This document shows, one piece after another, positions 6,408-64,000 of a stretch of 64,000 nt of DNA. Location of the stretch: positions 62,001 to 126,000 of the forward strand of contig NZ_BLVP01000010.1 of NCBI RefSeq assembly GCF_013340305.1. Reading direction: 5' to 3'. Every line of letters begins with the position of its first letter. The stretch's first letter is position 1. The translations under genes were made by a program, and so were the position numbers. Under the pieces are notes generated by a model that was not told the origin of the DNA, ran no database searches, and saw only the letters and a program-made list of their open reading frames with translations. The stretch is from Desulfovibrio psychrotolerans (GTDB lineage: Bacteria > Desulfobacterota > Desulfovibrionia > Desulfovibrionales > Desulfovibrionaceae).

Positions 6408-7817
6408 TTAGCTTCGGCGTCCTACTGAAAGCCCGGCCAGAAGCCTGTTTCTGACCTGTTCCGGGTTCCATGCCAGCTCGCCCTGCCGGATTTCGAAGTG
6501 CAGGTGCGGCCCGGTGGAACGGCCTGTGCTTCCTACCTCTGCAATTTTCCTGCCGGAGCTGATGTAGTCGCCCTCCGCAACGGTGAGTTTGCTGTTGTGG
6601 CCGTAATAGGTGTGCCAGCCGCCCTCGTGTTCCAGCACCACAAGATTGCCGTATCCTTCCCTTTCTCCCGCGAAGACCACCTTGCCGTCCCATGCGGCGG
6701 CGACGGGGTCGCCCACGTTACCGGCGATGTCCATGCCTGCGTGCCACTCGCGCATGCCGGTGAACGGATCATCGCGCCAGCCGAAGCCGGAGGTGATGCG
6801 TCCGGGCAGGGGCCAGTTGAGCATGCCCATTTCCGGATTGCGGCTCACGGGGCCGCCCATGGCGAGCGTGCCTTCGTTTCTTTCTGCAAAGCCTGCGCTG
6901 CCAGCCCTGCTGACGGCGGCGGAATGTTGCAAATCTTCGGGATCATAGGTTGCGCCATCCCGGCGGGGGGGCATGCCGTATCCGGGGTTGACCTGTGCGG
7001 GGGCTTGCAGAGGGGGGCGGCGCATGGACGGAGACGCCCCGCCCACGCCGGAAGGCTCATCCGCCGGGGTGCCGGTGAGGATGGAGCGGGCTATGCGGTC
7101 CACCTCGGTGTGCACGGAGGAATCCTGCGCCGTGAAGTGTGCCTGGGCATGGGGCTGTGTGCCCTGTGATTGCGGTGACAGGCCGGACGAGAGAGGGGCG
7201 GAACGTAACGGTGCCGCCCGTCCGGGCTGCGTAGCTGCCGGAGTAGCCGGGGTAGCCGGAGGCATGCCCTGAGGCGGGATAAGCGGCAGAGGAGAGGGCA
7301 GAATGATACCCTGCTCATCCGTCATCTGGTCCTGCGCGTCATTCAGAGGGGAATACAAACTGTCATCATGCGGTATATCCTGCCGCAGGGGGGTGTCTTC
7401 CGGCCTGTCCGCATGGCGCAGCGGTTCCACAGGCACGGGAGTGGAGACCCGGCTGGGAGCCGTGGTGCGGCTGGCACTGCCCATGGAGCTTTGCAACTGC
7501 TCAACCAGCATGTCCGCAAGGCCTATGCCGCCGGCGGAGGCCATTTTTTTGGAAAGTTCCTGATCGAACATGCCCTGCCAGAATTCTTCGTCCTTGCCGT
7601 GCAGGTAGCCTTCTTTGGGCACGGTGGCGCGCATCTGCTGCCACATTTTCTGAATGAAGATGGCCTCAAACCCTTCCACAGCCTCACGCAGCTTTTTGTC
7701 CTTGGCGTCCGGGTCGACAAGGCGCTTACGCAGGGCATCCATTTCCAGCTTGCGGCGGATGAGATCCTGCCCGCTCATCTGGGCATTGAGGAGGTTGGGG
7801 TCGAGAGGCGTGGTCAT
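6408..7817 (-). CDS. flgJ: FlgJ-type rod protein fused to an M23 peptidase
   Basis: Residues 30-110 form the FlgJ rod-binding domain (AVEGFEAIFIQKMWQQMR and GGIGLADMLVEQL). A Pro/Ser/Gln-rich linker spans about 120-325. Residues 335-455 are a LytM/M23 zinc endopeptidase with H359, D363 (HAGMD), H438 and H440 (HLHFE) as the expected metal and catalytic residues. In gamma- and betaproteobacteria FlgJ carries a GH73 muramidase instead, so here rod assembly is coupled to a peptide-cutting enzyme. The protein must act in the periplasm but no ordinary signal peptide is seen, which fits export through the flagellar route. The gene lies between flgI and flgN. Confidence 0.88.
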   Translation of the reverse strand: MTTPLDPNLLNAQMSGQDLIRRKLEMDALRKRLVDPDAKDKKLREAVEGFEAIFIQKMWQQMRATVPKEGYLHGKDEEFWQGMFDQELSKKMASAGGIGLADMLVEQLQSSMGSASRTTAPSRVSTPVPVEPLRHADRPEDTPLRQDIPHDDSLYSPLNDAQDQMTDEQGIILPSPLPLIPPQGMPPATPATPAATQPGRAAPLRSAPLSSGLSPQSQGTQPHAQAHFTAQDSSVHTEVDRIARSILTGTPADEPSGVGGASPSMRRPPLQAPAQVNPGYGMPPRRDGATYDPEDLQHSAAVSRAGSAGFAERNEGTLAMGGPVSRNPEMGMLNWPLPGRITSGFGWRDDPFTGMREWHAGMDIAGNVGDPVAAAWDGKVVFAGEREGYGNLVVLEHEGGWHTYYGHNSKLTVAEGDYISSGRKIAEVGSTGRSTGPHLHFEIRQGELAWNPEQVRNRLLAGLSVGRRS

Positions 7818-7818
7818 G

Positions 7819-9012
7819 TCAGATCACCTCAAGCTCCGCGTGCAGCGAACCTGCTGCCTTAAGGGCGCGGAGGATGGAGATAAGGTCGCGCGGGGTTGCG
7901 CCGATGGAGTTCAGGCCATCGGTGAGTTCCTGCAGGGTGGCACCTTCCACCAGAACGAGCCGTCGGTTTTCTTCCTGCGCGGCAATGTCGGTGGCGGGAG
8001 CGGCAACGGTCTGTCCGGGGCTGAAGGCACCGGGCTGCGAAACCTGCATGCCTTCCTGCACCACGATTTGCAGTGCGCCGTGGGCAATGGCCACCTGAGA
8101 GATGCGTACATCGCGGCCCACCACAACCGTGCCGGTCTTTTCATCCACCACCACGCGCGCGCGCGAGTCGGGGGTGATCTGCACGTTTTCTATGGACGCC
8201 ATGAGCGGCACCAGATTGTTCTGGTACTCGGGCGGAACGCGCAACCGGATGGTGGAGGCGTCTGTGGCGTAGGCAAAGTCGCCGCCGATGGTTTCGTTCA
8301 GGCGGTTTACCACCTGCTGGGTGGTGGAAAAGTCTGCATTGTTCATGTGCAGGGACAGGGCGTCCTGACTGTTGAACTGGAACGGGATGCCGCGTTCCAC
8401 GGAAACGCCGTTGGGAATGCGGCCCACGGTGGTGATGTTTTTCTGTGCGCGGGCGGCCTCGCCTTCTGCGGAAAAACCGCCGAGGGCCAGCGGGCCTTGC
8501 GCCAGTCCGTAGACCTTGCCGTCTATGCCCTTGAGGGGGGTGAGCAAAAGCACACCGCCCAGCAGGCTGGAGGCGTCGCCGATGCTGGAGATAGTGGCGT
8601 CGAGCCGTGATCCCGGCTGCGCGGAGGAAGGCATTTTGGCTGTGACCATGACCGCGGCCACGTTCTTGGGCCGCAGGGCGTCACGGTCCACGCTTACGCC
8701 CATCTTGTCCAGCATGTTGGCCATGGAACTGATGGTGAAGGTGGAGGTTCTGCCGTCTCCCGTGCCGCTAAGGCCCACCACAAGCCCGTATCCCACGAGC
8801 TGGTTGTCCCGCATGCCGCCGAAGCTGGCGATATCCTTGATGCGTACCGCGCCTGCCCGGGGAGGCAGGGCCAGCAGGCATGTCAGAACAAGGGCCAGCA
8901 GCGGGAGAAGGAGCAGGGCAACCTGGCGGATACGGGGAGCCTGCACCGGCATGGCGGCTGTATGGCCGGAGCGTGCGGTGCGGGCAGAGTGGTGATGGGG
9001 GCGGATATTCAT
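7819..9012 (-). CDS. flgI: Flagellar P-ring protein FlgI
   Basis: FlgI forms the P ring around the rod in the peptidoglycan layer. The 397-residue protein has an N-terminal export signal (hydrophobic stretch at about 31-47, then LPPRAGA) and the family signature [20 protein letters not shown] just after it. The ATG at 9012 follows GGAGAA with short spacing and gives the usual signal peptide. A longer frame from 9063 would run into flgH and is less likely. flgH ends 16 bases upstream. Confidence 0.95.
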
Positions 9013-55330: not shown

Positions 55331-56227
55331 TTACAGCAGATGCTTCCGGCATCCCTGCACAAGGGTTTCGGAAAGCTCTTCAAGCAGTGAGGTGCCGAGA
55401 TTCCAGTGGTGCCAGTAGAGGCTGACCGGAACGGCGTGGTGCGGAGCAAGGGGGATGAGCTCGCCTGAATGCAGCAGCGGGTTGCCCTGCGGGTGGGGCA
55501 CCATGCCGTAGGCATGCCCTGCGCGGATCATCTCCACGAACTGGCTGGATGAGGGGACATAGTGCGGGGGAAAGCCGTTATCTTCCACGCCCCACAGGGC
55601 GGCGAAGCGGCAGTGCAGCAGGTCCTTGCGGTTGAAGGTGACGGCGGGGGCACGGCGCAGTGCCTGTTCTTCCACCCCGTGCGGGAACCAGCGGGACACG
55701 AACTGCGGGGTGGCGAGGCACTGGTAATCCATTCTGCCCAAGGGCACACAGCGGCAGCCCTGTATGGGGGTGGCAAGGCTGCTTATGCAGCCTGTGACCA
55801 CGCCGGTACGCAGCAGGGCGTGGGTGACTTCCTGATCATCGGTGTAGATGTCCAGCAGCACGGGGCGGCTAGCCAGAAACGGACGCAGTACAGGCAGAAA
55901 CCATGTGGCGAGGCTGTCTTCGTTCACGGCGAGGGGCATGACCACAGGCGTGTCCATTGCGTCTGACGGGGAAGAAGACCGGAAGGTTGCCAGCAGGTCG
56001 TCTTCCAGATGGCGCACGCGGCGGTAGTGAGCCAGCAGGCGTTGTCCGGCTTCGGTAGGGCGCACGGGAGAGGCGCGTACAAGCAGCGGCTGCCCCATGG
56101 CATCTTCCAGCGACCGGATACGCTGCGAGACGGCGGACTGCGTGATGTGCAGCCGCGATGCGGCCTTTTCAAACCCGCCTTCCTGCACCACAGCGGCAAG
56201 CGCCTGCATAAGTCTGTTATCCAGCAT
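55331..56227 (-). CDS. argP: LysR-type regulator ArgP
   Basis: The 298-residue protein matches ArgP/IciA/LysG closely at the N-terminus: QALAAVVQEGGFEKAASRLH, ITQSAVSQRIRSLEDAMGQ, LLVRASPVRPTEAGQRLL. The C-terminal half is a ligand-binding domain. ArgP activates export of basic amino acids (arginine, lysine). The divergent gene 140 bases away encodes its usual partner, the exporter ArgO/LysE, and an inverted repeat lies between them. Confidence 0.9.
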   Translation of the reverse strand: MLDNRLMQALAAVVQEGGFEKAASRLHITQSAVSQRIRSLEDAMGQPLLVRASPVRPTEAGQRLLAHYRRVRHLEDDLLATFRSSSPSDAMDTPVVMPLAVNEDSLATWFLPVLRPFLASRPVLLDIYTDDQEVTHALLRTGVVTGCISSLATPIQGCRCVPLGRMDYQCLATPQFVSRWFPHGVEEQALRRAPAVTFNRKDLLHCRFAALWGVEDNGFPPHYVPSSSQFVEMIRAGHAYGMVPHPQGNPLLHSGELIPLAPHHAVPVSLYWHHWNLGTSLLEELSETLVQGCRKHLL

Positions 56228-56251
56228 GGATCAGTATTAGCAAAATTAATG

Positions 56252-56280
56252 AGATAGTAAAACTATTAGTTTTACTATCT
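56252..56280. promoter_or_regulatory. ArgP operator candidate in the argP-argO gap
   Basis: AGATAGTAAAAC (56252-56263) and GTTTTACTATCT (56269-56280) are perfect 12-base inverted arms with a 5-base spacer, 25 bases upstream of argP and about 90 before argO. LysR-type regulators bind such T-N11-A dyads between divergent genes. Confidence 0.75.
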
Positions 56281-56368
56281 GGGAAAAGGCGGAGTACGGT
56301 GCTCCCGGAGATGCGCTTACAGGAAGGGTTCCGTTGCGCTGCGGGTATTTGATAATCCGGGAGGAAGA

Positions 56369-56983
56369 TTGGTTACGGCGTACTTGCAGGGAATGGCTAT
56401 GGGCGGAGGTTTGATAGTCGCCATAGGGGCGCAGAACGCGTTTGTATTTTCGCAGGCAGTGCGCCGGAATAACGCACTGCTGGTGGCCCTGCTGTGCAGT
56501 CTGTGCGATGCCGTGCTCATAGGGGTGGGAGTGACCGGCATAGGCGCTGCTGTTGCCGCCAACCCTGTGCTGGGGCGTTGGAGCGCATGGCTGGGGGCGC
56601 TTTTCCTGTTCTGGTACGGGCTGGGGGCGTTGCGCTCTGCCCTGCGGGGCGGCTGCCTTGAGGACGAGGCACGGGTTCTTGTCACAGCGCGGGCTACGGT
56701 CATGGCCACGCTGGCCATTACGCTGCTGAATCCGCACGTGTATCTGGATACGGTGGTGCTGCTGGGCGCGGTGAGCGGACAGTATGCGCAGGATGCCCGG
56801 TATGTGTTCGGGGCGGGAGCGGCCACCGCCTCTGTTCTCTGGTTTTTCACGCTGGCGCTGGGCGGGGGCATGATGGCCCCGCTGTTCCGGTCACGCGGGG
56901 CGTGGCGGGTGCTGGATGGAGTGGTCTGCGCCACCATGTGGGGCATTGGCATGCGGCTGGCGCTGCACGGCATGTCTTTGTAA
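56369..56983 (+). CDS. argO: LysE/ArgO-family basic amino-acid exporter
   Basis: The 204-residue inner-membrane protein has about six helices and the family motif GLIVAIGAQNAFVFSQAVRR near the N-terminus, then LLNPHVYLDTVVLLGAVSGQ. It should export arginine or lysine. Size is normal. The start is probably TTG 56369 right after GGGAGGAAGA; an ATG at 56393 is the alternative. It pairs with divergent argP. Confidence 0.9.
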   Translation: MVTAYLQGMAMGGGLIVAIGAQNAFVFSQAVRRNNALLVALLCSLCDAVLIGVGVTGIGAAVAANPVLGRWSAWLGALFLFWYGLGALRSALRGGCLEDEARVLVTARATVMATLAITLLNPHVYLDTVVLLGAVSGQYAQDARYVFGAGAATASVLWFFTLALGGGMMAPLFRSRGAWRVLDGVVCATMWGIGMRLALHGMSL

Positions 56984-56984
56984 A

Positions 56985-57040
56985 AAAAAGCCCCCGCGCG
57001 CCCCGGTGTGATTGTATACGGGGAGGCGCGGAGGCCCTGT
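56985..57040 (-). terminator. Terminator of the GAK-type operon
   Basis: On the minus strand a GC-rich stem (CCGCGCC-CCCCG against CGGGG-GCGCGG) with a small bulge is followed by GGGGGCTTTTTTTT. It lies about 90 bases after the last gene of the operon and just behind the convergent argO stop. Confidence 0.75.
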
Positions 57041-57128
57041 ATGCTGCCGGGGCAAACGCTCTATGGGGAAAGCGTGAGCGACCGGATGTGCGGACGGGGG
57101 TGAGAGTCCGCCCGCTGCGGCGCAGGCG

Positions 57129-57788
57129 TTAGCTGGTGCGTCTGCCTGCGGGCTGTTTTTTTGCGCTGCGGTTGCCCGCCTTGCCTGTTTTCTGGCCGGG
57201 AGCTTTGCTGCGGGGGGGTACTGCCGCATTCTTTCCCGCTGTCCCGGCTGAGGCTTTGGGTGCCGGGGCTTTTGATGCCGGGGCCTCCGGTGCCGGAGCG
57301 GGTTTGGCGGTATTTGGCTGTGCCGGTGCCGCAACGGCTTGTGGTGCGTTTTTTTCCTGCGCGGTGGTTATATGGCGCGGCTCCGGCGAGGCAGGAGATT
57401 CGGGAGTCGCGCATTCCTCAGAGGAAGCGTTTTCCTCCGCAGGGGCTTGCTGTGTGGTTTCCACTGTGACCGTGGTAGCCGTGGTATCTGGTGTCGCTGC
57501 GGTTGCTGTGCAGCAGGGGGCGGCGGGTACCGCCGAGATGGTCACAGCTGCGGATTCCACGGCCGGAGCGGAGTACCATTCCAGTTCCAGAGCAAACTTC
57601 TGCCTGTCCTTTTTCGTTCTGGCTTCCACGGTCACTTCCAAGTGCTCCGGGGTGGTGAGCACCACCTGCTCGCCGCCTTGTTCCACCACGACTCTGCCTG
57701 CCTTGAGGCTTTGCACCAGGGCCTCAAGGTACGCAACGGCATCGGCAAAGGCCAATTGCTGCGTTACGCTGATCTTGTTTTTTTCCAT
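57129..57788 (-). CDS. Amphi-Trp domain protein with long Ala/Pro/Lys tail
   Basis: Residues 1-72 form an amphi-Trp domain: an amphipathic helix, LKAGRVVVEQGGEQVVLTTP and the closing FALELEWY. Residues 75-150 are Ala/Thr/Glu/Pro-rich, and 150-219 are Ala/Pro/Lys-rich and strongly basic (GKAGNRSAKKQPAGRR at the end). The tail resembles histone-H1-like or flexible linker sequences. ATG 57788 follows CGGAG; a GTG two codons earlier would sit inside that site. It is the last gene of the GAK-type operon, 33 bases after the CofD-like gene. The domain family has no known function. Confidence 0.82.
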   Translation of the reverse strand: MEKNKISVTQQLAFADAVAYLEALVQSLKAGRVVVEQGGEQVVLTTPEHLEVTVEARTKKDRQKFALELEWYSAPAVESAAVTISAVPAAPCCTATAATPDTTATTVTVETTQQAPAEENASSEECATPESPASPEPRHITTAQEKNAPQAVAAPAQPNTAKPAPAPEAPASKAPAPKASAGTAGKNAAVPPRSKAPGQKTGKAGNRSAKKQPAGRRTS

Positions 57789-57821
57789 GACCACTCCGTT
57801 TCGGGTATCGGGTTGTCCGTG

Positions 57822-59180
57822 CTAGCACAGCGAGAGCAGCACGGGATTGAGCAGGGTTTCGTCTATGTATGGCGCGCTCACTTTGCTTACGAGCTGCCGG
57901 TCCAGCACGGTAATGCCGCGGGCAGCCAGTGCCTGCCTGTCCAGCGAGGCAGCGGTGCCCGGATAGACGCCGTTTTTGGAATCCACGAGCACGAAGGAGA
58001 GCAGGTCGGCATCTGCCGTTGCGGGCGGGGCCTGAGTGCCCGTATCGCCCTTTTCACCCATTTCGTCCATTTCGCCCGTGGGAGACGTTGCTTTGCAGGG
58101 GGCGGCGCAGCTTGCATGCAGATGGTGGAGGAGCCTTTCCACCTGCATGCCGAGGTCGTGGCCCAGAAGTTCCGGGTCGGTGCCTGTGTTGGGGATGAAA
58201 ATTTTGGGTTTCCCGCTCTGCGCCACGGCCTGTCCCACGCCTGCGGGCAGCAGGGTGGCGATGAGGCTGGAATAGAAGCTGCCCATGGGATAGCAGATGA
58301 GGTCTGCGGAACCAATGAGCTGGCGGGTTTTTGACCGGATGGCGGGCCGGATGACAGATCGGGTGGCGGGCCGGATAGGGGCGGGAATGTCGGGCGCGCC
58401 CTGATTTGGCGAGGCTTCGGTTTCCTGACGATCGGGCAGGGCTTCCGTAATCCAGATGTCCTCTATGGGGCTGCTGACAGGGGCGGTGGCCTTGCCGGTG
58501 AAGTTGTGCTGCCCGGTTATAACCGTGCCGTCCGCGAGGCGTACCGCCAGATGGCCGTATTTGCCGGTGACGGGCCGCACGGTGCCGCGCACCTCCACCA
58601 GTTTGGAGAACAGGTAGATCACCGGGTCCAGATGCCGCCGGTTGCTCAGGAAGCCTGCCGTGAGCACAAGATTGCCGAGGCTGGCCCCGCGCAGGTCGAA
58701 GCCGGGGGGCATGTGGTCGGTGAAGATGTGGAAGTGATTGCGGATGATCTTGCGCATGGGGTCTGTGATGCACCGGATGAGCCTGTGCCTGCCTGTTGCC
58801 AGGGAAGCAAGTTCTGCCTGCAGGGCCTCCGGCGGCGCAAGGGGGTCCAGCCGGTGGGCGAAGAGGTCGAATATCTCCGGGTTGCCCTGAATGGTCTGAT
58901 CCGCCAGTGCCATAAGGCGGTTGCGCACGTCGCCCACGGCCGGCATGTGGAAGGCGTTGCGCAGCACGGCGGAGCTGCCGCCGGAATCGAAGGGGGTGAT
59001 CAGGTGGATGGAGTTGTGGGTGTAGCCGGTGAGATGGCGCGCAACACTCCGCAGTGCCGTGCCACCGCTGAAGAAGAGGATGCGGGGGCCAAGTTGCGGA
59101 GCATGGCGGAAGCGTTCCAGCTTGAGCGGGTCCGGCAGGGTGGTCTCGCGGGTGACCGTAAGGCGTGTCGGGCGGTCCAT
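57822..59180 (-). CDS. GAK-system CofD/YvcK-like protein
   Basis: The 452-residue soluble protein has the CofD/YvcK (GlmR) nucleotide-binding fold: ILFFSGGTALRSVARHL at about 34-50, LITPFDSGGSSAVLR, AVGDVRNRLMALAD, then GASLGNLVLTAGFL and IPNTGTDPELLGHD. True CofD moves phospho-lactate to F420 precursor; YvcK binds UDP-GlcNAc in wall control. Neither reaction can be assumed. An Ile/Arg/Pro repeat (PIRPATRSVIRPAIRS, about 268-283) and an acidic insert near 360-385 break the core. It matches the CofD-like member of the GAK gene set. Confidence 0.85.
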   Translation of the reverse strand: MDRPTRLTVTRETTLPDPLKLERFRHAPQLGPRILFFSGGTALRSVARHLTGYTHNSIHLITPFDSGGSSAVLRNAFHMPAVGDVRNRLMALADQTIQGNPEIFDLFAHRLDPLAPPEALQAELASLATGRHRLIRCITDPMRKIIRNHFHIFTDHMPPGFDLRGASLGNLVLTAGFLSNRRHLDPVIYLFSKLVEVRGTVRPVTGKYGHLAVRLADGTVITGQHNFTGKATAPVSSPIEDIWITEALPDRQETEASPNQGAPDIPAPIRPATRSVIRPAIRSKTRQLIGSADLICYPMGSFYSSLIATLLPAGVGQAVAQSGKPKIFIPNTGTDPELLGHDLGMQVERLLHHLHASCAAPCKATSPTGEMDEMGEKGDTGTQAPPATADADLLSFVLVDSKNGVYPGTAASLDRQALAARGITVLDRQLVSKVSAPYIDETLLNPVLLSLC

Positions 59181-59260
59181 ATGCGGTGTGCCTTTGTGTA
59201 TTCAGTGTCGGACTGGGTGCCGACAGGGTGCTGACAGGGAGCTGGCAGTGTGCCGTAATA

Positions 59261-60415
59261 TTACAGGGAACCCGTGCGCATGAAGGAGAGGCAGATATCT
59301 GCCGCCGCATCAAAGTCCACGCCGCCCGTAACCTCCAGCACGGTAGTGCGCGCAAGAACTTGCGCGTAGGCGGATTCCGAAGGTTCCGTATAGTCCGGTG
59401 AGCACGGGCGGTAGAACAGGCCTGTGGACTTCATGAAAGCCGGGAGCAGATCGCGCCGCGTGAGGGGATCTACCACGTTTACGGCCACGGGCTGCCCGGT
59501 GCGGCTCCAGTTTAGTATGACCAGCGCATTCATGGGGGCTTGCAGGGCAAAGCGGCCTTTGCCGTAACATTCTTCTATGATGGCATCGTATTTGTGTTCC
59601 AGATGCCACAGGTCGGTGGTGGACAGGGCGAGGAAGCGTTCGCGGTCCTGCGGGGCGATGATGTCGCGCAGGTCCGGGTTGTGCAGCGCCGTACCGGGAT
59701 TGATGCGCGGCTGTTTGGGGATGCCGAGCATGGTGGGCAGGCCTTCCGGCTCTTCGGCATTGACGCGCAGAAGAACCCTGTCGTTGCTGACAAAGGTGGT
59801 GCCCTTGCTCATGAGGTGCAGAGCCAGTGTGGATTTGCCCATGCCCGAAAAGCCCGCCAGCGAGATACCCCGGCCATGGTGCATGACGCCTGCGGCATGG
59901 CCCAGCAGGCAGCCCCTGTCCAGCATGTGTTCCAGATAGCGGTTGTTTATGAAGTTGATGACCTGATTATCGTTGGCAAGGCATGCGCCTACTGCCACGT
60001 TGCCTGCATCGCCGAACAGGAAATGCATGCCCGTGATGCGCTTGCGGACTATGCGTCCGTCCGGCAGGTCGAGCCATTCTTCCTTTATCTTGGCCTTTCC
60101 GGGGTCCGGGGTTTTGACCAGAAAGGGACCGGGCAGGGGGAAGGGAAGCTCGCGGTCATCGGTTTCGTGCGCGGTGATGAGTATGTCCGGGGGCGTCTGC
60201 GGGGCACCGCTCTCTGTCTCCGGTTCCAGAAATTCGCTGAAGTAGCGGCGCAGGGCTGTGGCAAGGGCATCATTGTTTGTGCGCACGCTGATGGTGAGGT
60301 CGCCCACGCGCAGGAGCAGGCCGCAGTGCACGGGCAGGGTGTGGCGGATGGCCAGCATGTGGTCCGTGAGTGAGGCGTGGGCCGTGGGGGCGGCGTTGGG
60401 GGTGGCGGCTGTCAT
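59261..60415 (-). CDS. HprK-related kinase B (GAK system)
   Basis: The 384-residue protein has a C-terminal HPr-kinase-like core: LLGHAAGVMHHGRGISLAGF, the P-loop GFSGMGKST (188-196), and FVSNDRVLLRV with a likely catalytic Asp212. This is the arrangement of HprK and PckA-type P-loops. The N-terminal 100 residues are not HprK. The substrate is unknown; no HPr is nearby, so a small operon protein such as an amphi-Trp protein may be the target. Its start overlaps the ATP-grasp stop by four bases (ATGA) and its AAGGAG site lies inside that gene. Confidence 0.85.
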   Translation of the reverse strand: MTAATPNAAPTAHASLTDHMLAIRHTLPVHCGLLLRVGDLTISVRTNNDALATALRRYFSEFLEPETESGAPQTPPDILITAHETDDRELPFPLPGPFLVKTPDPGKAKIKEEWLDLPDGRIVRKRITGMHFLFGDAGNVAVGACLANDNQVINFINNRYLEHMLDRGCLLGHAAGVMHHGRGISLAGFSGMGKSTLALHLMSKGTTFVSNDRVLLRVNAEEPEGLPTMLGIPKQPRINPGTALHNPDLRDIIAPQDRERFLALSTTDLWHLEHKYDAIIEECYGKGRFALQAPMNALVILNWSRTGQPVAVNVVDPLTRRDLLPAFMKSTGLFYRPCSPDYTEPSESAYAQVLARTTVLEVTGGVDFDAAADICLSFMRTGSL

Positions 60416-61287
60416 CGCGCGGTCTCCTTCATCACGTAATCCAGATAAAGTTGGGCGGCATCCAGACCGCTGGTGTCCAGAATGCCGCGAAAACCACCAA
60501 AGGCCGAGACTTCGAACACGTAGGGGCCGTCATCGGTAAGGGCCACATCCACGCAGGTGAAATCCAGCCCGAAGAGCTGCTGCGCCTTGTGGGCAACGGC
60601 AATGACATCGGCAGAGGGCTGGTACAGGGCGTATTTGCCGCCGTTTACCGTGGTGGTGTTCCATGAATCGTTGGTTTTGCAGCGGGCGTAGGTGGTGAGG
60701 TATTGGCCGCCCAGAAACACGATGCCAAGGTCCTTGCCGCCTTCCAGATTGATGGCCTTCTGGATGTACAGAATGCGGTAGTCGCGGGCGTAGGCGGCGA
60801 TGGTATCGCGGGCGTCGGGACCGTCTTCCAGCATGAACATGCCGCGCGCCTTGGATGTGAACAACGGCTTGAACACCGCGCGCCCGTAGTCGCGGACAGC
60901 GGCAAGGGCGTGGTCCACGTCTTCCGTTATGGTGGTGGGCGGCATGGGAATGTTGCCGCTTTGCAGAGTCACGGTGCAGGACAGGCGGTCCAGCACACGC
61001 ATGATTTTGTAAGGGTCTGAAAACACGGGCAGGCCGCGTTCGCGGAGCAGGCGCAGGATTTCCAGCCTGTCCAGCAGGTCCGGGGAATACCATGAGCCGA
61101 TTTTCTTGACGATGAGCGCGTCAAGGGTGGAGATGTCTGTATCTTCGTACCAGCACCTGCCGGAGGGCAGGTCCAGCCGCACCTTGTCCATTTCTATGAG
61201 CAGCCGGTAGCCGGTGCTCTTTTCCACCGTGTCTGCGAGCAGTTCCGAAGACCACCCGCCTTTGGTGCCGACAACGCCTATTTTCAC
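60412..61287 (-). CDS. GAK-system RimK-like ATP-grasp enzyme
   Basis: The 291-residue protein starts at GTG 61287 (KIGVVGTKGGWSSELLADT), preceded by GAGG. It has the ATP-grasp parts: RVLDRLSCTVTLQSGNIPMP, VFKPLFTSKARGMFML, and the metal-binding end VDVALTDDGPYVFEVSAFGG. It is related to RimK-type enzymes, which form amide bonds between a carboxylate and an amine with ATP. It could add an amino acid to a protein or cofactor in this system. It lies 23 bases after the PhoU-kinase gene. Confidence 0.87.
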   Translation of the reverse strand: MKIGVVGTKGGWSSELLADTVEKSTGYRLLIEMDKVRLDLPSGRCWYEDTDISTLDALIVKKIGSWYSPDLLDRLEILRLLRERGLPVFSDPYKIMRVLDRLSCTVTLQSGNIPMPPTTITEDVDHALAAVRDYGRAVFKPLFTSKARGMFMLEDGPDARDTIAAYARDYRILYIQKAINLEGGKDLGIVFLGGQYLTTYARCKTNDSWNTTTVNGGKYALYQPSADVIAVAHKAQQLFGLDFTCVDVALTDDGPYVFEVSAFGGFRGILDTSGLDAAQLYLDYVMKETAR

Positions 61288-61310
61288 TTCTTGTACCTCG
61301 CGGGATTGGA

Positions 61311-62972
61311 TCAATAGAAGAGGACATCGCGCGGCAGCCGGAAGTGCTGCCACGGGGCGTCTCTGTGCGCCAGCAGTTTTTCCATGAGGAAATGCGCCCG
61401 CAGGTACATTTCTCTGGCAAAGGAGAAATTCAGTTCGTATCGCGTGGAAGAGTAGAACGACCGCGCCAGTGCAAACCCAAGCCGCGCCTCAAAGGTGGCA
61501 TCGCCGCTGTGATGGGCGTAGCTTGCAGCAAAGGTGAAGAATTCCTGTATGGCCCAGTTCAGCCTGTGGCGCAGGCTGGGTTCGAAGATGGGCATACGGA
61601 AGTTGGAAACCATGAACACGGAGGCGTCCTGAACGTAGTCGTAATCGCGGGAGCGGTGCAGGTCTATGTACCGCACTGCCTGCTGCACATGGTCGTAGAC
61701 AATGTTGTTCAGGTTGAAGTCGCCGTGGATGAGCACGGTGAAGGGGGCTTCCAGCTCCTGTTCCAGCGCGTAACAGGCGTTTACCAGCGCGTCTGTGGAC
61801 AGGACGCAGGCACTTCCCACATCCAGTGCCTTGCGGAACAGTTCGGGGTGCACCTGCTGCACGGAAGGCAGGCGCGATTTGAGCTGGGCGATGTAGTCCG
61901 TGGGCACGGGGGTATCAAGGCGGGTTTTATCCCACACCTCGCGCAGGGTTTGCAGCAGGATGAACAGGGCGTTCTGTGCCAGTTCGTCGCTGCCGGTGAT
62001 GAGCACTTCGTCCAGCGTGCAGCCGCGCAGGAATTCCACCAGCAGGGAGGCATTGCCGCCCTCTTCATGGTAGCCGTAAACCTGCGGCACAAGATTGGGG
62101 AACACTGCGCTCCAGCGATCTATGTTGGCGCGTTCCTGCTTGATTTTGGCGACGGTGCCTTCCTTGTAGATGGAGCCCTGCGTATCTACGCCACGTCGGG
62201 TCTGCCCTTCCTTGTCCGGGACGGCGTCCACCTTGCCGATGCGGCAGCCCGAGCGGGTGCCCCATATGGCCTGAAAGTCAATGTCCTGCAATGAGCCCTG
62301 AAAGCCGGAGTTTTTCAGCGTGCGCTGGAGGGCGTCGAACTGGGTGATTTTGATCTTCTCTCCCAGCGTGCTGAAGATGAGGGCCTCGCCTATGTTCAGC
62401 AGCGAGTCGCCTATGCGCTCCAGATACCGGAAGATGAAGATGACCGTGATGTGGCTCTGCACGTCTCGCCCGGTGCCCAGTTCCGTGAGGACGCGCTCAA
62501 ACACATCCTTGTACATGCGGTCCAGTTCAAACTCCGAGCGGCATATGGCCAGTGCCCACGACAGGTCGTCCCGCTCGAAGGCGGGAAGGATACGCTTTAT
62601 GGCGTCCTGTATCTGTTCAAAGATGGGCAGATAGTCTGATTCGCGCAGGAAACTCTTGTCCGTGAGGTAGCCCATCTGGCGGATGATGTTCACACAGTGG
62701 TCCGCAATGCGTTCCAGATTCACCGATATGGTGTTTATGGCCCGGATGCGGTTTATTTCCTGCTTGTCCAGTTGTCTGTCTGCATGCAGGCGGGAGTAAC
62801 ACTTGTTTTCTATGATGGTTTTCAGGTTGTCGATGTAGTCGTCGCGCGATTCTATCTTCTCGAACAACGCCCGCGAAGGGGACCGGAGGAAGGACAGGGT
62901 GCTGTTTATCTGTCCTTCCACTTCCAGAATGATGAATTTGAAGTTCTCGCTCAGACCTTCGAAGGTGATCAT
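61311..62972 (-). CDS. PhoU-like domain fused to an APH-type kinase domain
   Basis: Residues 1-210 form two PhoU-like three-helix bundles (VEGQINSTLSFL, RIRAINTISVNLERIADHCV, IFIFRYLERIGDSLLNIGEA). Residues about 250-540 resemble the aminoglycoside phosphotransferase/choline kinase fold with the catalytic loop HGDFNLNN (416-423) and a metal-binding Asp437 in YIDLHRSRD. The usual G-loop is less clear. A fusion of PhoU to a small-molecule kinase domain is unusual. ATG 62972 lies two bases after the amphi-Trp stop. It may phosphorylate the product handled by the ATP-grasp and CofD-like enzymes; this is inference. Confidence 0.8.
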   Translation of the reverse strand: MITFEGLSENFKFIILEVEGQINSTLSFLRSPSRALFEKIESRDDYIDNLKTIIENKCYSRLHADRQLDKQEINRIRAINTISVNLERIADHCVNIIRQMGYLTDKSFLRESDYLPIFEQIQDAIKRILPAFERDDLSWALAICRSEFELDRMYKDVFERVLTELGTGRDVQSHITVIFIFRYLERIGDSLLNIGEALIFSTLGEKIKITQFDALQRTLKNSGFQGSLQDIDFQAIWGTRSGCRIGKVDAVPDKEGQTRRGVDTQGSIYKEGTVAKIKQERANIDRWSAVFPNLVPQVYGYHEEGGNASLLVEFLRGCTLDEVLITGSDELAQNALFILLQTLREVWDKTRLDTPVPTDYIAQLKSRLPSVQQVHPELFRKALDVGSACVLSTDALVNACYALEQELEAPFTVLIHGDFNLNNIVYDHVQQAVRYIDLHRSRDYDYVQDASVFMVSNFRMPIFEPSLRHRLNWAIQEFFTFAASYAHHSGDATFEARLGFALARSFYSSTRYELNFSFAREMYLRAHFLMEKLLAHRDAPWQHFRLPRDVLFY

Positions 62973-62974
62973 GG

Positions 62975-63247
62975 CTATTCCGTGCTCACGGAGAGGTTTG
63001 CGTCTGTGACGGTAAGCTGTTTGCGGTTGTCCTTCCATTCAATCTTTATGCTCAGCTTGCTGCTGTCGCCTTTCCGGCGCGCCTTGACCGAAAAATCCAG
63101 AAGGCCCGAAGGGGTAAGCTCGATGCGGTCGCCGTTTGAGGCGAGAACCACCTTCTCGTTCTCGAAACCCTGCATGAGGGATTCCAGAAACACCTTGATG
63201 GACTGAGCGTCCTGCATGGATTCGAACACGAATTTTTCTTCAGCCAT
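62975..63247 (-). CDS. Small amphi-Trp domain protein
   Basis: The 90-residue protein is almost entirely one amphi-Trp domain: EKFVFESMQDAQSIKVFLES (helix), FENEKVVLASNGDRIELTPS, and LSIKIEWKDN with the closing Trp. It is a paralogue of the N-terminal domain at 57129-57788, so two amphi-Trp proteins flank the enzymes in this operon. The size suggests a carrier or substrate protein. GGAGAAAG precedes the ATG; the PhoU-kinase gene follows after two bases. Confidence 0.87.
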   Translation of the reverse strand: MAEEKFVFESMQDAQSIKVFLESLMQGFENEKVVLASNGDRIELTPSGLLDFSVKARRKGDSSKLSIKIEWKDNRKQLTVTDANLSVSTE

Positions 63248-63265
63248 TGCTTTCTCCGGTTGGGT

Positions 63266-64000
63266 TTATCCCGCCAGCCGTTCCCTGTAGCGGCGGATAA
63301 CGGTGTTGCGGCTCACTTCGCCTATGATCAGTTTCTTGCGGATGTTCAGGTCATCCCACGCGGGTTGCAGGCCCACCTCGCGAATGGATTTTTCCGGGTC
63401 CTGCTGTTCCAGCGGGCGCGCTTTTTCGCCCAGATGGCAGTCATCACCCATGAAGATGAGCAGTTCGCGCTGCGAGGCGGCGCGTGTGCGGTTGTGGCGG
63501 TTGACCACCTCTATGAGAAATTCCGTATAGCGGCGGGATTGCGGGTTCCACACTTCGTAGCCGTCCACATCGTACCCGCGCAGCAGGATGGGCCAGAATT
63601 CTTCCGGGTGGGGAATGACCACGCAGCCGCCCAGCGAGCGGGTTTCTTCTATGACCTCGGAGGCGCGGTAGAAGTAGTCCAGCGAGAATTCCTGCTTGAC
63701 CAGTTCCTTGACAGCCTTGAGGAAGGCTTGTGCGCGGTCTATGAACAGGTCGCCGTAGCGTGGGCGCAGACCATCGAAAAAGTTGCGCAGAAGTTTGTTT
63801 TTGACCGACATGGGCGGTACGGAAGACCAGTTATCGTCCAGAAGGGTCTGTATCTTGCCCACCATGGCGCACAGAAAGCCCACAAGCTGCTCGTCTGCTC
63901 CGGTGTTGCGGGCTGCCCTGTCCAGCCTGTCCTGATGGGGGCGGGTGAAGCAGTGCATGAATTCGAAAAGCTGGCTGGAGCGGTATTTGAAGGTGTGCGT
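63266..64000 (-). CDS. PHP-like protein, C-terminal part, runs off the window
   Basis: The frame stays open to the window edge (reading TFKYRSSQLFEFMHCFTRPH before the first internal ATG), so the gene starts beyond 64000. The visible 245 residues contain GGCVVIPHPEEFWP, GYDVDGYEVWNPQSRRY and LLIFMGDDCHLGEKARP, with His/Asp clusters typical of the second half of PHP-type metal-dependent phosphoesterases. It is 18 bases upstream of the small amphi-Trp gene and so probably part of the same operon. Family call is moderate because the N-terminal HxH motif is outside the window. Confidence 0.65.
   Translation of the reverse strand, partial: THTFKYRSSQLFEFMHCFTRPHQDRLDRAARNTGADEQLVGFLCAMVGKIQTLLDDNWSSVPPMSVKNKLLRNFFDGLRPRYGDLFIDRAQAFLKAVKELVKQEFSLDYFYRASEVIEETRSLGGCVVIPHPEEFWPILLRGYDVDGYEVWNPQSRRYTEFLIEVVNRHNRTRAASQRELLIFMGDDCHLGEKARPLEQQDPEKSIREVGLQPAWDDLNIRKKLIIGEVSRNTVIRRYRERLAG

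Follow-up and report, generated by a model that had tools for sequence, protein, structure and literature searches.

We analyzed an operon of the GAK (grasp and kinase) type in Desulfovibrio psychrotolerans, which lies at the end of a 64,000-nucleotide stretch of DNA (the window) comprising bases 62001-126000 of a 294,844-base contig (NZ_BLVP01000010.1) in a genome of 3.79 Mb. Seven open frames, all running leftward, were read directly in positions 57129-64000 (Table 1), with spacings of 2, 18, 23, 27, and 80 bases and one overlap of 4 bases. The window edge cuts the PHP-like gene, and extension of the sequence past 64000 completes it and reveals an eighth gene just outside the window. This gene (64447-65226 on the window's scale) encodes the 259-amino-acid GAK XXXCH protein and is the first of the operon, such that the full order is XXXCH, PHP, small amphi-Trp, PhoU-APH, ATP-grasp, HprK-like, CofD-like, and large amphi-Trp. 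The row closes with a terminator hairpin of -32.7 kcal/mol (z -4.9; 0 of 200 shuffles as good). Upstream of the operon are rpoC and rpoB, with a terminator-like hairpin between rpoC and the XXXCH gene; rpoC also precedes the GAK genes in three related loci (L068, L077, and L116). Because this operon is rich in kinases and phosphohydrolases and repeatedly adjoins genes for phosphate uptake and phosphate starvation, we propose that its role is probably to sense, store, or release phosphate.

Table 1. Features of the GAK operon in window coordinates, with profile scores and model cut-offs in bits
Feature	Position	Strand	Basis
Large amphi-Trp protein, 221 aa: amphi-Trp domain and long Ala/Pro/Lys-rich tail	57129..57794	-	TIGR04354 65.1 (cut-off 31); PF20068 36.4
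GAK CofD-like protein, 452 aa	57822..59180	-	TIGR04357 (CofD_rel_GAK) 494.1 (cut-off 340)
HprK-related kinase B, 384 aa	59261..60415	-	TIGR04355 (HprK_rel_B) 503.1 (cut-off 200)
GAK ATP-grasp enzyme, 291 aa, RimK/MptN/LysX group	60412..61287	-	TIGR04356 (grasp_GAK) 448.2 (cut-off 300)
PhoU domain fused to APH-type kinase, 553 aa	61311..62972	-	PF01895 91.0 (cut-off 23.5); PF01636 24.7 (cut-off 23.2)
Small amphi-Trp protein, 90 aa, with S10-x-Q12-D13 motif and W71	62975..63247	-	TIGR04354 69.4 (cut-off 31)
PHP-fold metal-dependent phosphoesterase (predicted), 388 aa	63266..64000 (on to 64432)	-	Predicted fold and invariant metal-site residues
Intrinsic terminator, operon end	56978..57045	-	Hairpin and run of 8 T at its foot

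The start of the PhoU-kinase gene is probably 62972 rather than 63038; the profile runs used longer frames for this protein (to 63038) and for the ATP-grasp enzyme (to 61353). All five families of the NCBIfam GAK system (TIGR04354-TIGR04358) score over cut-off here, within one operon. A preliminary description of this DNA had assigned the ATP-grasp, HprK-like, CofD-like, and both amphi-Trp proteins to this system, and these assignments are borne out, as is the pairing of the enzymes with amphi-Trp proteins. It had likewise recognized a PhoU-kinase fusion, which passes both Pfam cut-offs, and a PHP-like protein, with which the structural prediction below agrees. Its seven leftward genes and single terminator stand, but the operon has eight genes, and its start, which had been left open at 64000, falls at the XXXCH gene that was missed outside the window. 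The NCBIfam models give names rather than functions, and the PhoU-APH fusion and the PHP protein match none of the GAK models.

Judged from alignments, the catalytic motifs of the GAK enzymes are kept across relatives. The ATP-grasp enzyme matches the RimK/MptN/LysX ligases over its full length, with 7qyr as its nearest entry in the PDB (E 5e-24), yet it falls below the cut-offs of MptN (135.8 versus 350 bits), rimK_fam (92.7 versus 143.4), and LysX (72.3 versus 275.6). Its metal site carries Ser (EVSAFGGF) in place of the usual Asn of the EVN motif, and EVS is found in all 11 aligned sequences. The HprK-like kinase resembles HprK in its P-loop region, in an aligned His, and in the presence of a small protein of about 90 amino acids nearby. 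The P-loop (G188 to T196), His173, and Asp212 are invariant in 20 aligned sequences, and the match to HprK structures (E 3e-5) is confined to the P-loop region. However, the protein scores 29.1 bits against a cut-off of 240 for hpr-ser (TIGR00679), the KSE and DD of HprK are KST and ND here (Glu to Thr, and first Asp to Asn), and the small neighbor is an amphi-Trp protein rather than HPr. Similarly, the CofD-like protein matches PF01933 (114.6 bits) and has its best profile match with 2ppv (E 2e-32) among structures labeled uncharacterized or UPF0052 in the PDB, which are presumably of the YvcK (GlmR) type, but it reaches only 92.4 of the 196 bits demanded of YvcK.

The two remaining enzymes are those without a GAK model. 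The PhoU-APH fusion matches the PhoU structure 4q25 (E 1e-18), although it does not reach the full-length PhoU model TIGR02135 (85.9 versus 130.25 bits). Alignment of 21 homologs shows no variation in the HGDFN motif, in an Asp further along, or in the E/D residues of the two PhoU repeats. The kinase part does not reach the APH(3') equivalog NF033068 (25.1 versus 205 bits), and there is no reason to name it a resistance gene. The PHP-like protein gave no sequence match in Pfam, NCBIfam, or the PDB. Its AlphaFold2 model (predicted local distance difference test, pLDDT, 89.5) is matched about equally by 3e0f (Z 15.2, root-mean-square deviation (rmsd) 3.8, 244 residues aligned), the RNase AM structure 9etk (Z 15.0, 3.4, 238), and 2yb1 (Z 14.5, 3.4, 239). 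The motif HxHxE, residues H98, E111, and H128, and the motifs HPE and DDxH are invariant in 24 sequences. Because the predicted fold and the invariant metal-site residues agree, this previously unclassified gene is assigned to a predicted PHP-fold phosphoesterase.

The tail of the large amphi-Trp protein differs among relatives and can be K/A/P-rich, acidic, or His-rich. Two records titled Halodesulfovibrio (L077:13185-14015 and L116:13168-14115) encode a large amphi-Trp protein with a long His-rich tail, and the composition of this tail suggests metal or polyanion binding. Among 64 small amphi-Trp proteins, W71 is present in every one, the Ser of the S-x-Q-D motif in 58, and the complete motif in 53. 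The motif is also present in all four Rhodobacterales homologs from GAK loci (two of which are near-identical Tritonibacter proteins) and in none of 15 amphi-Trp proteins that do not adjoin GAK enzymes. Thus, S-x-Q-D accompanies the GAK enzymes, which fits a dedicated partner role for the small amphi-Trp protein. Amphi-Trp genes are also found away from GAK in 18 regions (L150-L167), where some encode just 68-69 amino acids and several reside in GAK-less genomes; no Pst genes lie beside the genes of these 18 regions, of which L160, L164, and L165 are profile-negative.

The XXXCH protein passes TIGR04358 with 102.2 bits against a cut-off of 40. In its relatives, the N-terminus is an amphi-Trp domain: two XXXCH frames reach the amphi-Trp cut-off (one in G049, and one in G079 together with a neighboring piece), and seven others score 22-29 bits. 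The window's own XXXCH protein has a long insert in its N-terminal part and does not match the amphi-Trp model, and the presence of this domain is therefore claimed from the relatives. The C-terminus of one relative (L079) is predicted to form a four-helix bundle (pLDDT 91.5) that resembles cytochrome c' (Z 11.6 to 2j9b, rmsd 3.3, 99 residues aligned within residues 73-171), although helical bundles often score alike and a designed bundle ranks first among the matches. The fold matches span only residues 73-171, and the amphi-Trp domain obtained none of its own. A profile comparison independently matches XXXCH to the heme-bearing helix of cytochrome c' (E 7e-5). Unlike the cytochrome c'/b562 bundles, however, none of 52 XXXCH domains contains CXXCH, whereas CH is present in 51 (44 by script, the rest by reading tails). 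XXXCH relatives are thus predicted to combine two parts, an amphi-Trp domain and a bundle like that of cytochrome c', and any heme binding is purely putative. Proteins with XXXCH domains also occur in genomes of a phylum sample without an over-cut-off GAK ATP-grasp (L058-L065 and L067); L066, by contrast, belongs to a GAK genome that has another XXXCH locus as well.

An alignment search with the ATP-grasp enzyme found at least 499 related stretches. The best 80 were fetched and, with 10 others and the D. psychrotolerans locus itself, make up the 91 loci that were read. Records among the best 80 are mostly titled as sulfate-reducing Desulfobacterota, with Zixibacteriota, GN15, Eisenbacteria, FCPU426, Atribacteria, Spirochaetia, and Gammaproteobacteria among the other titles. 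The order PHP, amphi-Trp, PhoU-APH, ATP-grasp, HprK, CofD, and amphi-Trp recurs in these loci with pieces missing. Because the same order recurs so widely, the operon is not a product of chance, and the conservation suspected in the preliminary description holds upon comparison of neighborhoods. HprK is present in 84 of the 91 loci, PHP in 73 (12 of the 18 loci without it start near a contig end), and the CofD-like gene in 67, not counting a second locus in the D. psychrotolerans genome. No HprK-like gene lies beside the ATP-grasp gene in L057, L088, L095, and L110. Among the 148 genomes of the phylum sample, 11 carry grasp_GAK over cut-off and 10 carry HprK_rel_B, all of the latter among the former. 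On this comparative basis, the GAK core seems to consist of the small amphi-Trp protein, the PhoU-kinase, the ATP-grasp enzyme, and usually the HprK-like kinase. In one locus (L054, G042:C113), the genes appear to be split into several frames (PHP in two, PhoU-APH in three, and CofD in two pieces), reflecting either decay or assembly errors.

The neighbors of these loci point to phosphate. When neighboring proteins were clustered without prior choice, PstB, a PhoB-type regulator, and a GT4 glycosyltransferase were among the first four clusters, and PstS and PstC/A followed closely. Pst or PhoU genes flank 13 of the 91 loci, or 11 of 53 clusters formed at 70% ATP-grasp identity, whereas 0.37 loci are expected from flank length if one pst operon were placed at random in 4 Mb. 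The same genes occur in 1 of 40 control windows taken from 9 genomes, of which 4 bear GAK (Fisher p 0.036 by locus and 0.008 by cluster); GAK flanks average about 10 kb versus 20 kb for control windows, and GAK loci on short contigs were kept in the denominator. In L078, pstS-pstC-pstA-pstB-phoU, of which every gene passes its NCBIfam cut-off, continues on one strand into XXXCH-PHP-amphiTrp-PhoU/APH-ATPgrasp-HprK-CofD, with 64 bases between the phoU stop and the XXXCH frame. The same run is seen in L089 and L132 with a low-molecular-weight (LMW)-phosphatase-like gene in between. GAK therefore shares with the Pst-PhoU system both the PhoU domain and, in some loci, a continuous gene order, but its PhoU domain is fused to a kinase and its control by Pho is putative. 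When ten neighbor proteins from L078, L101, L144, and L005 were run on NCBIfam, PstB, PstS, PstC, PstA, and PhoU passed their cut-offs, and a PhoB-like protein did not (253.8 versus 296.2 bits). In a second region of the D. psychrotolerans genome (L005:5593-10035, G000:C1), a phoB-like gene, pstB, and phoU are followed on the same strand by a weak amphi-Trp-like gene, which at 15.9 bits is below cut-off, and by another CofD_rel_GAK gene. A Pit-type transporter (PF01384) adjoins GAK in L133, L140, and L110, and by similarity in L131. In L131, L133, and L140, GAK stands between this transporter and a cation P-type ATPase.

These associations make it likely that GAK is linked to phosphate homeostasis, which is its best-supported role and one that the preliminary description, whose interpretation is upheld in part, had not considered. 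According to PMC5193443, D. alaskensis G20 relies at low phosphate on Pst, PhoR, an Agt-type glycosyltransferase, and OlsF; the term ATP-grasp is not found in the main text of that paper.

Wider evidence for this link comes with limits, and several observations weigh against it. Adding Pit, PhoH, the GT4 glycosyltransferase, and OlsF-like proteins as markers raises the count to 32 of 91 loci versus 1 of 40 controls (p 1.5e-5) and to 23 of 53 clusters, but this p value is optimistic because the extra markers were chosen for their recurrence near GAK and the queries came from GAK loci. The pst count is the cleaner one because the other markers were picked after the fact. Marker thresholds were fixed after the GAK loci had been viewed and were applied equally to the control. 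The count of 32 leaves out the divergent Pit of L110, which was spotted by eye. Motifs or domain pairs judged by eye are the basis for naming a PHP part in the GT4 neighbor and for the labels OlsF-like and Agt-like; Pfam gives only glycosyltransferase, acyltransferase, and GNAT domains. Against the link, 59 of the 91 loci have no marker in the flanks available, including the window's main operon, which follows rpoBC. Pho-box-like sites (at least 11 of 14 positions) occur in 6 of 70 upstream regions against a shuffle mean of 1.4 and maximum of 3 in 40 rounds, a small excess that emerged from a fuller test after a first pass had looked negative, that is measured against shuffles rather than other promoters, and that uses an E. 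coli-type consensus that may differ locally. The window's own site of this kind is on the opposite strand, in the tail of rpoC. None of 10 XXXCH loci without GAK has pst or phoU. HprK was not found in 7 of the 91 loci, of which one is at a contig end, and the CofD-like gene was not found in 24 (some of them cut off). S10 is lost in L126, L131, L133, and L140, all of which keep HprK, whereas L057 and L095 retain S-x-Q-D although their ATP-grasp gene has no HprK beside it. Because S10 and HprK do not track each other, S10 is not simply the HprK site, and this pattern speaks against Ser10 as the HprK phosphosite. Finally, our searches found no expression or mutant data and no biochemistry on GAK. 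With these points counted, we still consider a phosphate-homeostasis module to be the best explanation of the system as a whole and hold it with moderate confidence.

As a tentative mechanism, which we prefer while regarding it as far from assured, GAK might run a PhoU-gated cycle of phosphorylation and dephosphorylation on, or together with, the amphi-Trp proteins. Like PhoU in its partnership with the Pst transporter, the PhoU domain of the fusion would read the phosphate state, and it would gate the attached APH-type kinase. Three enzymes would spend ATP on attaching phosphate or a different group to an acceptor: this kinase, the RimK-like ATP-grasp enzyme, and, in loci that have it, the HprK-like kinase. 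The acceptor could be the small amphi-Trp protein or a small molecule that it binds. The PHP phosphoesterase would take the added group off again, and the YvcK/CofD-like, tailed amphi-Trp, and XXXCH proteins would be accessory. We infer the sensing of phosphate, the direction of the reactions, and the identity of the acceptor. The preliminary description had inferred a different use of the same parts, a pathway acting on a small carrier. In this reading, the small amphi-Trp protein would be a LysW-like carrier on which biosynthesis of a cofactor or modified amino acid takes place. The membership of the ATP-grasp enzyme in the RimK/MptN/LysX group and the GAK-specific motif of the small protein beside the enzymes agree with such a pathway. 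However, the C-terminus of the small protein lacks the conservation seen in LysW-type carriers and offers no conserved acceptor, and the commonest neighbors are phosphate and signaling genes rather than cofactor genes, and we therefore judge a carrier pathway improbable.

Similarly improbable, in our estimation, is a separate stress function (e.g., an arsenate, metal, or redox response) that is merely sited in phosphate islands. LMW-phosphatase-like genes near 7 of the 91 loci, cation P-type ATPases near 6, and the cytochrome c'-like bundle predicted for XXXCH relatives could be read in this manner. Mere co-location would not lead one to expect that phoU runs on into GAK, that a PhoU domain is built into the system itself, or that Pit genes are neighbors as well.

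A second form of the operon is found on plasmids. Four Rhodobacterales plasmids from three genera encode a phosphotransferase (PhoU-APH in both loci examined), ATP-grasp, HprK-like, and amphi-Trp proteins, and a histidine phosphatase with a metallophosphoesterase in place of PHP; two carry a CofD-like gene and one a NUDIX gene. In L141, from a metagenome-assembled genome titled Gammaproteobacteria, the GAK operon includes a histidine phosphatase-NUDIX fusion (7146-8138) and a second histidine phosphatase. A frame related to this fusion lies at L092:9081-10004, for which Pfam gives NUDIX only. Because the Rhodobacterales and L141 loci carry such sets, PHP is replaceable by other phosphohydrolases, and under the phosphorylation cycle proposed above the histidine phosphatase and metallophosphoesterase (once with NUDIX) would perform the removal step in Rhodobacterales. 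All five plasmid records with a match are from Rhodobacterales, and one could speculate that GAK is a phage-defense system or the cargo of mobile elements. This is exceedingly improbable, given that PADLOC matched none of the 7 proteins run (all but the large amphi-Trp protein of the 8), no phage record matched, and no relatives occur in viral contigs.

A more specific proposal is that GAK makes and mobilizes a phosphate reserve, which would be a small molecule bearing many phosphate or pyrophosphate groups and held in packed form by the amphi-Trp proteins. The set contains three ATP-using enzymes along with phosphohydrolases, the loci are linked to phosphate genes, and the basic, acidic, or His-rich tails of amphi-Trp proteins resemble granule proteins in composition, with AlgP as the comparison. 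The D. psychrotolerans genome has no match to PPK1 or PPK2, and PPK1 is present in only 1 of 50 GAK genomes among the 80 fetched. In the family of the window, the two GAK genomes (G000 and G037) lack PPK1, whereas three of four GAK-less genomes have it (G071, G097, and G143). In the phylum sample, PPK1 is found in 0 of 11 GAK genomes versus 15 of 137 without GAK, which is not significant (p 0.30) in a group where PPK is rare; nor is the comparison for PPK1 or PPK2 together (0 of 11 versus 19 of 137, p 0.21). Pooling with the 50 gives p 0.019, but the samples are related and possibly overlapping, and the 50 are partly kin. Mutual exclusion of GAK and polyphosphate kinase is thus weakly indicated. 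The ATP-grasp enzyme is also nearest to amino-acid ligases, which speaks against a reserve of this type, and we consider it unlikely.

In eukaryotes, PPIP5K, DIPP, and SPX place ATP-grasp, histidine phosphatase, and NUDIX proteins around phosphate control. A search for homology of the GAK ATP-grasp enzyme to inositol-pyrophosphate enzymes gave none, with neither PPIP5K nor ITPK among the 60 PDB matches listed of 62 to E 10, which also counts against the reserve; eukaryotic inositol-pyrophosphate signaling is an analogy only. Granules of Desulfovibrio gigas reportedly consist of glucose pentakis(diphosphate) (Hensgens et al. 1996), a compound for which, to our knowledge, no biosynthesis is known. 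These granules would fit a phosphate reserve, and this compound is a candidate product of GAK. The full version of the idea, a phosphate-storage or messenger system that builds a (pyro)phosphorylated compound with amphi-Trp proteins under PhoU-controlled breakdown, in hosts mostly without PPK1, strikes us as quite unlikely. The passages of PMC6210102 that were searched contain nothing on granule chemistry.

In the literature searched, no paper on the system was found under amphi-Trp, GAK system, HprK-related kinase, GAK ATP-grasp, or TIGR04356. Papers retrieved for the XXXCH or CofD-like protein are, by title, on other subjects, and those for DVU2931/DVU2933 are, judged by their listing, on two-component subjects. 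None of these searches listed a link of GAK to phosphate, its second operon form, or the identities of the two proteins. GAK has been a named yet unexplained gene set with at least 499 related stretches, and the link to phosphate offers a first testable function for it. The analysis also provides predicted folds for two unclassified proteins (PHP-like and XXXCH), as well as candidates for the means by which sulfate reducers that lack polyphosphate kinase detect and retain phosphate.

Adjoining the end of the operon in the window (55331-56983) are a LysR-type regulator and a divergent LysE/ArgO-like exporter, both named by eye.

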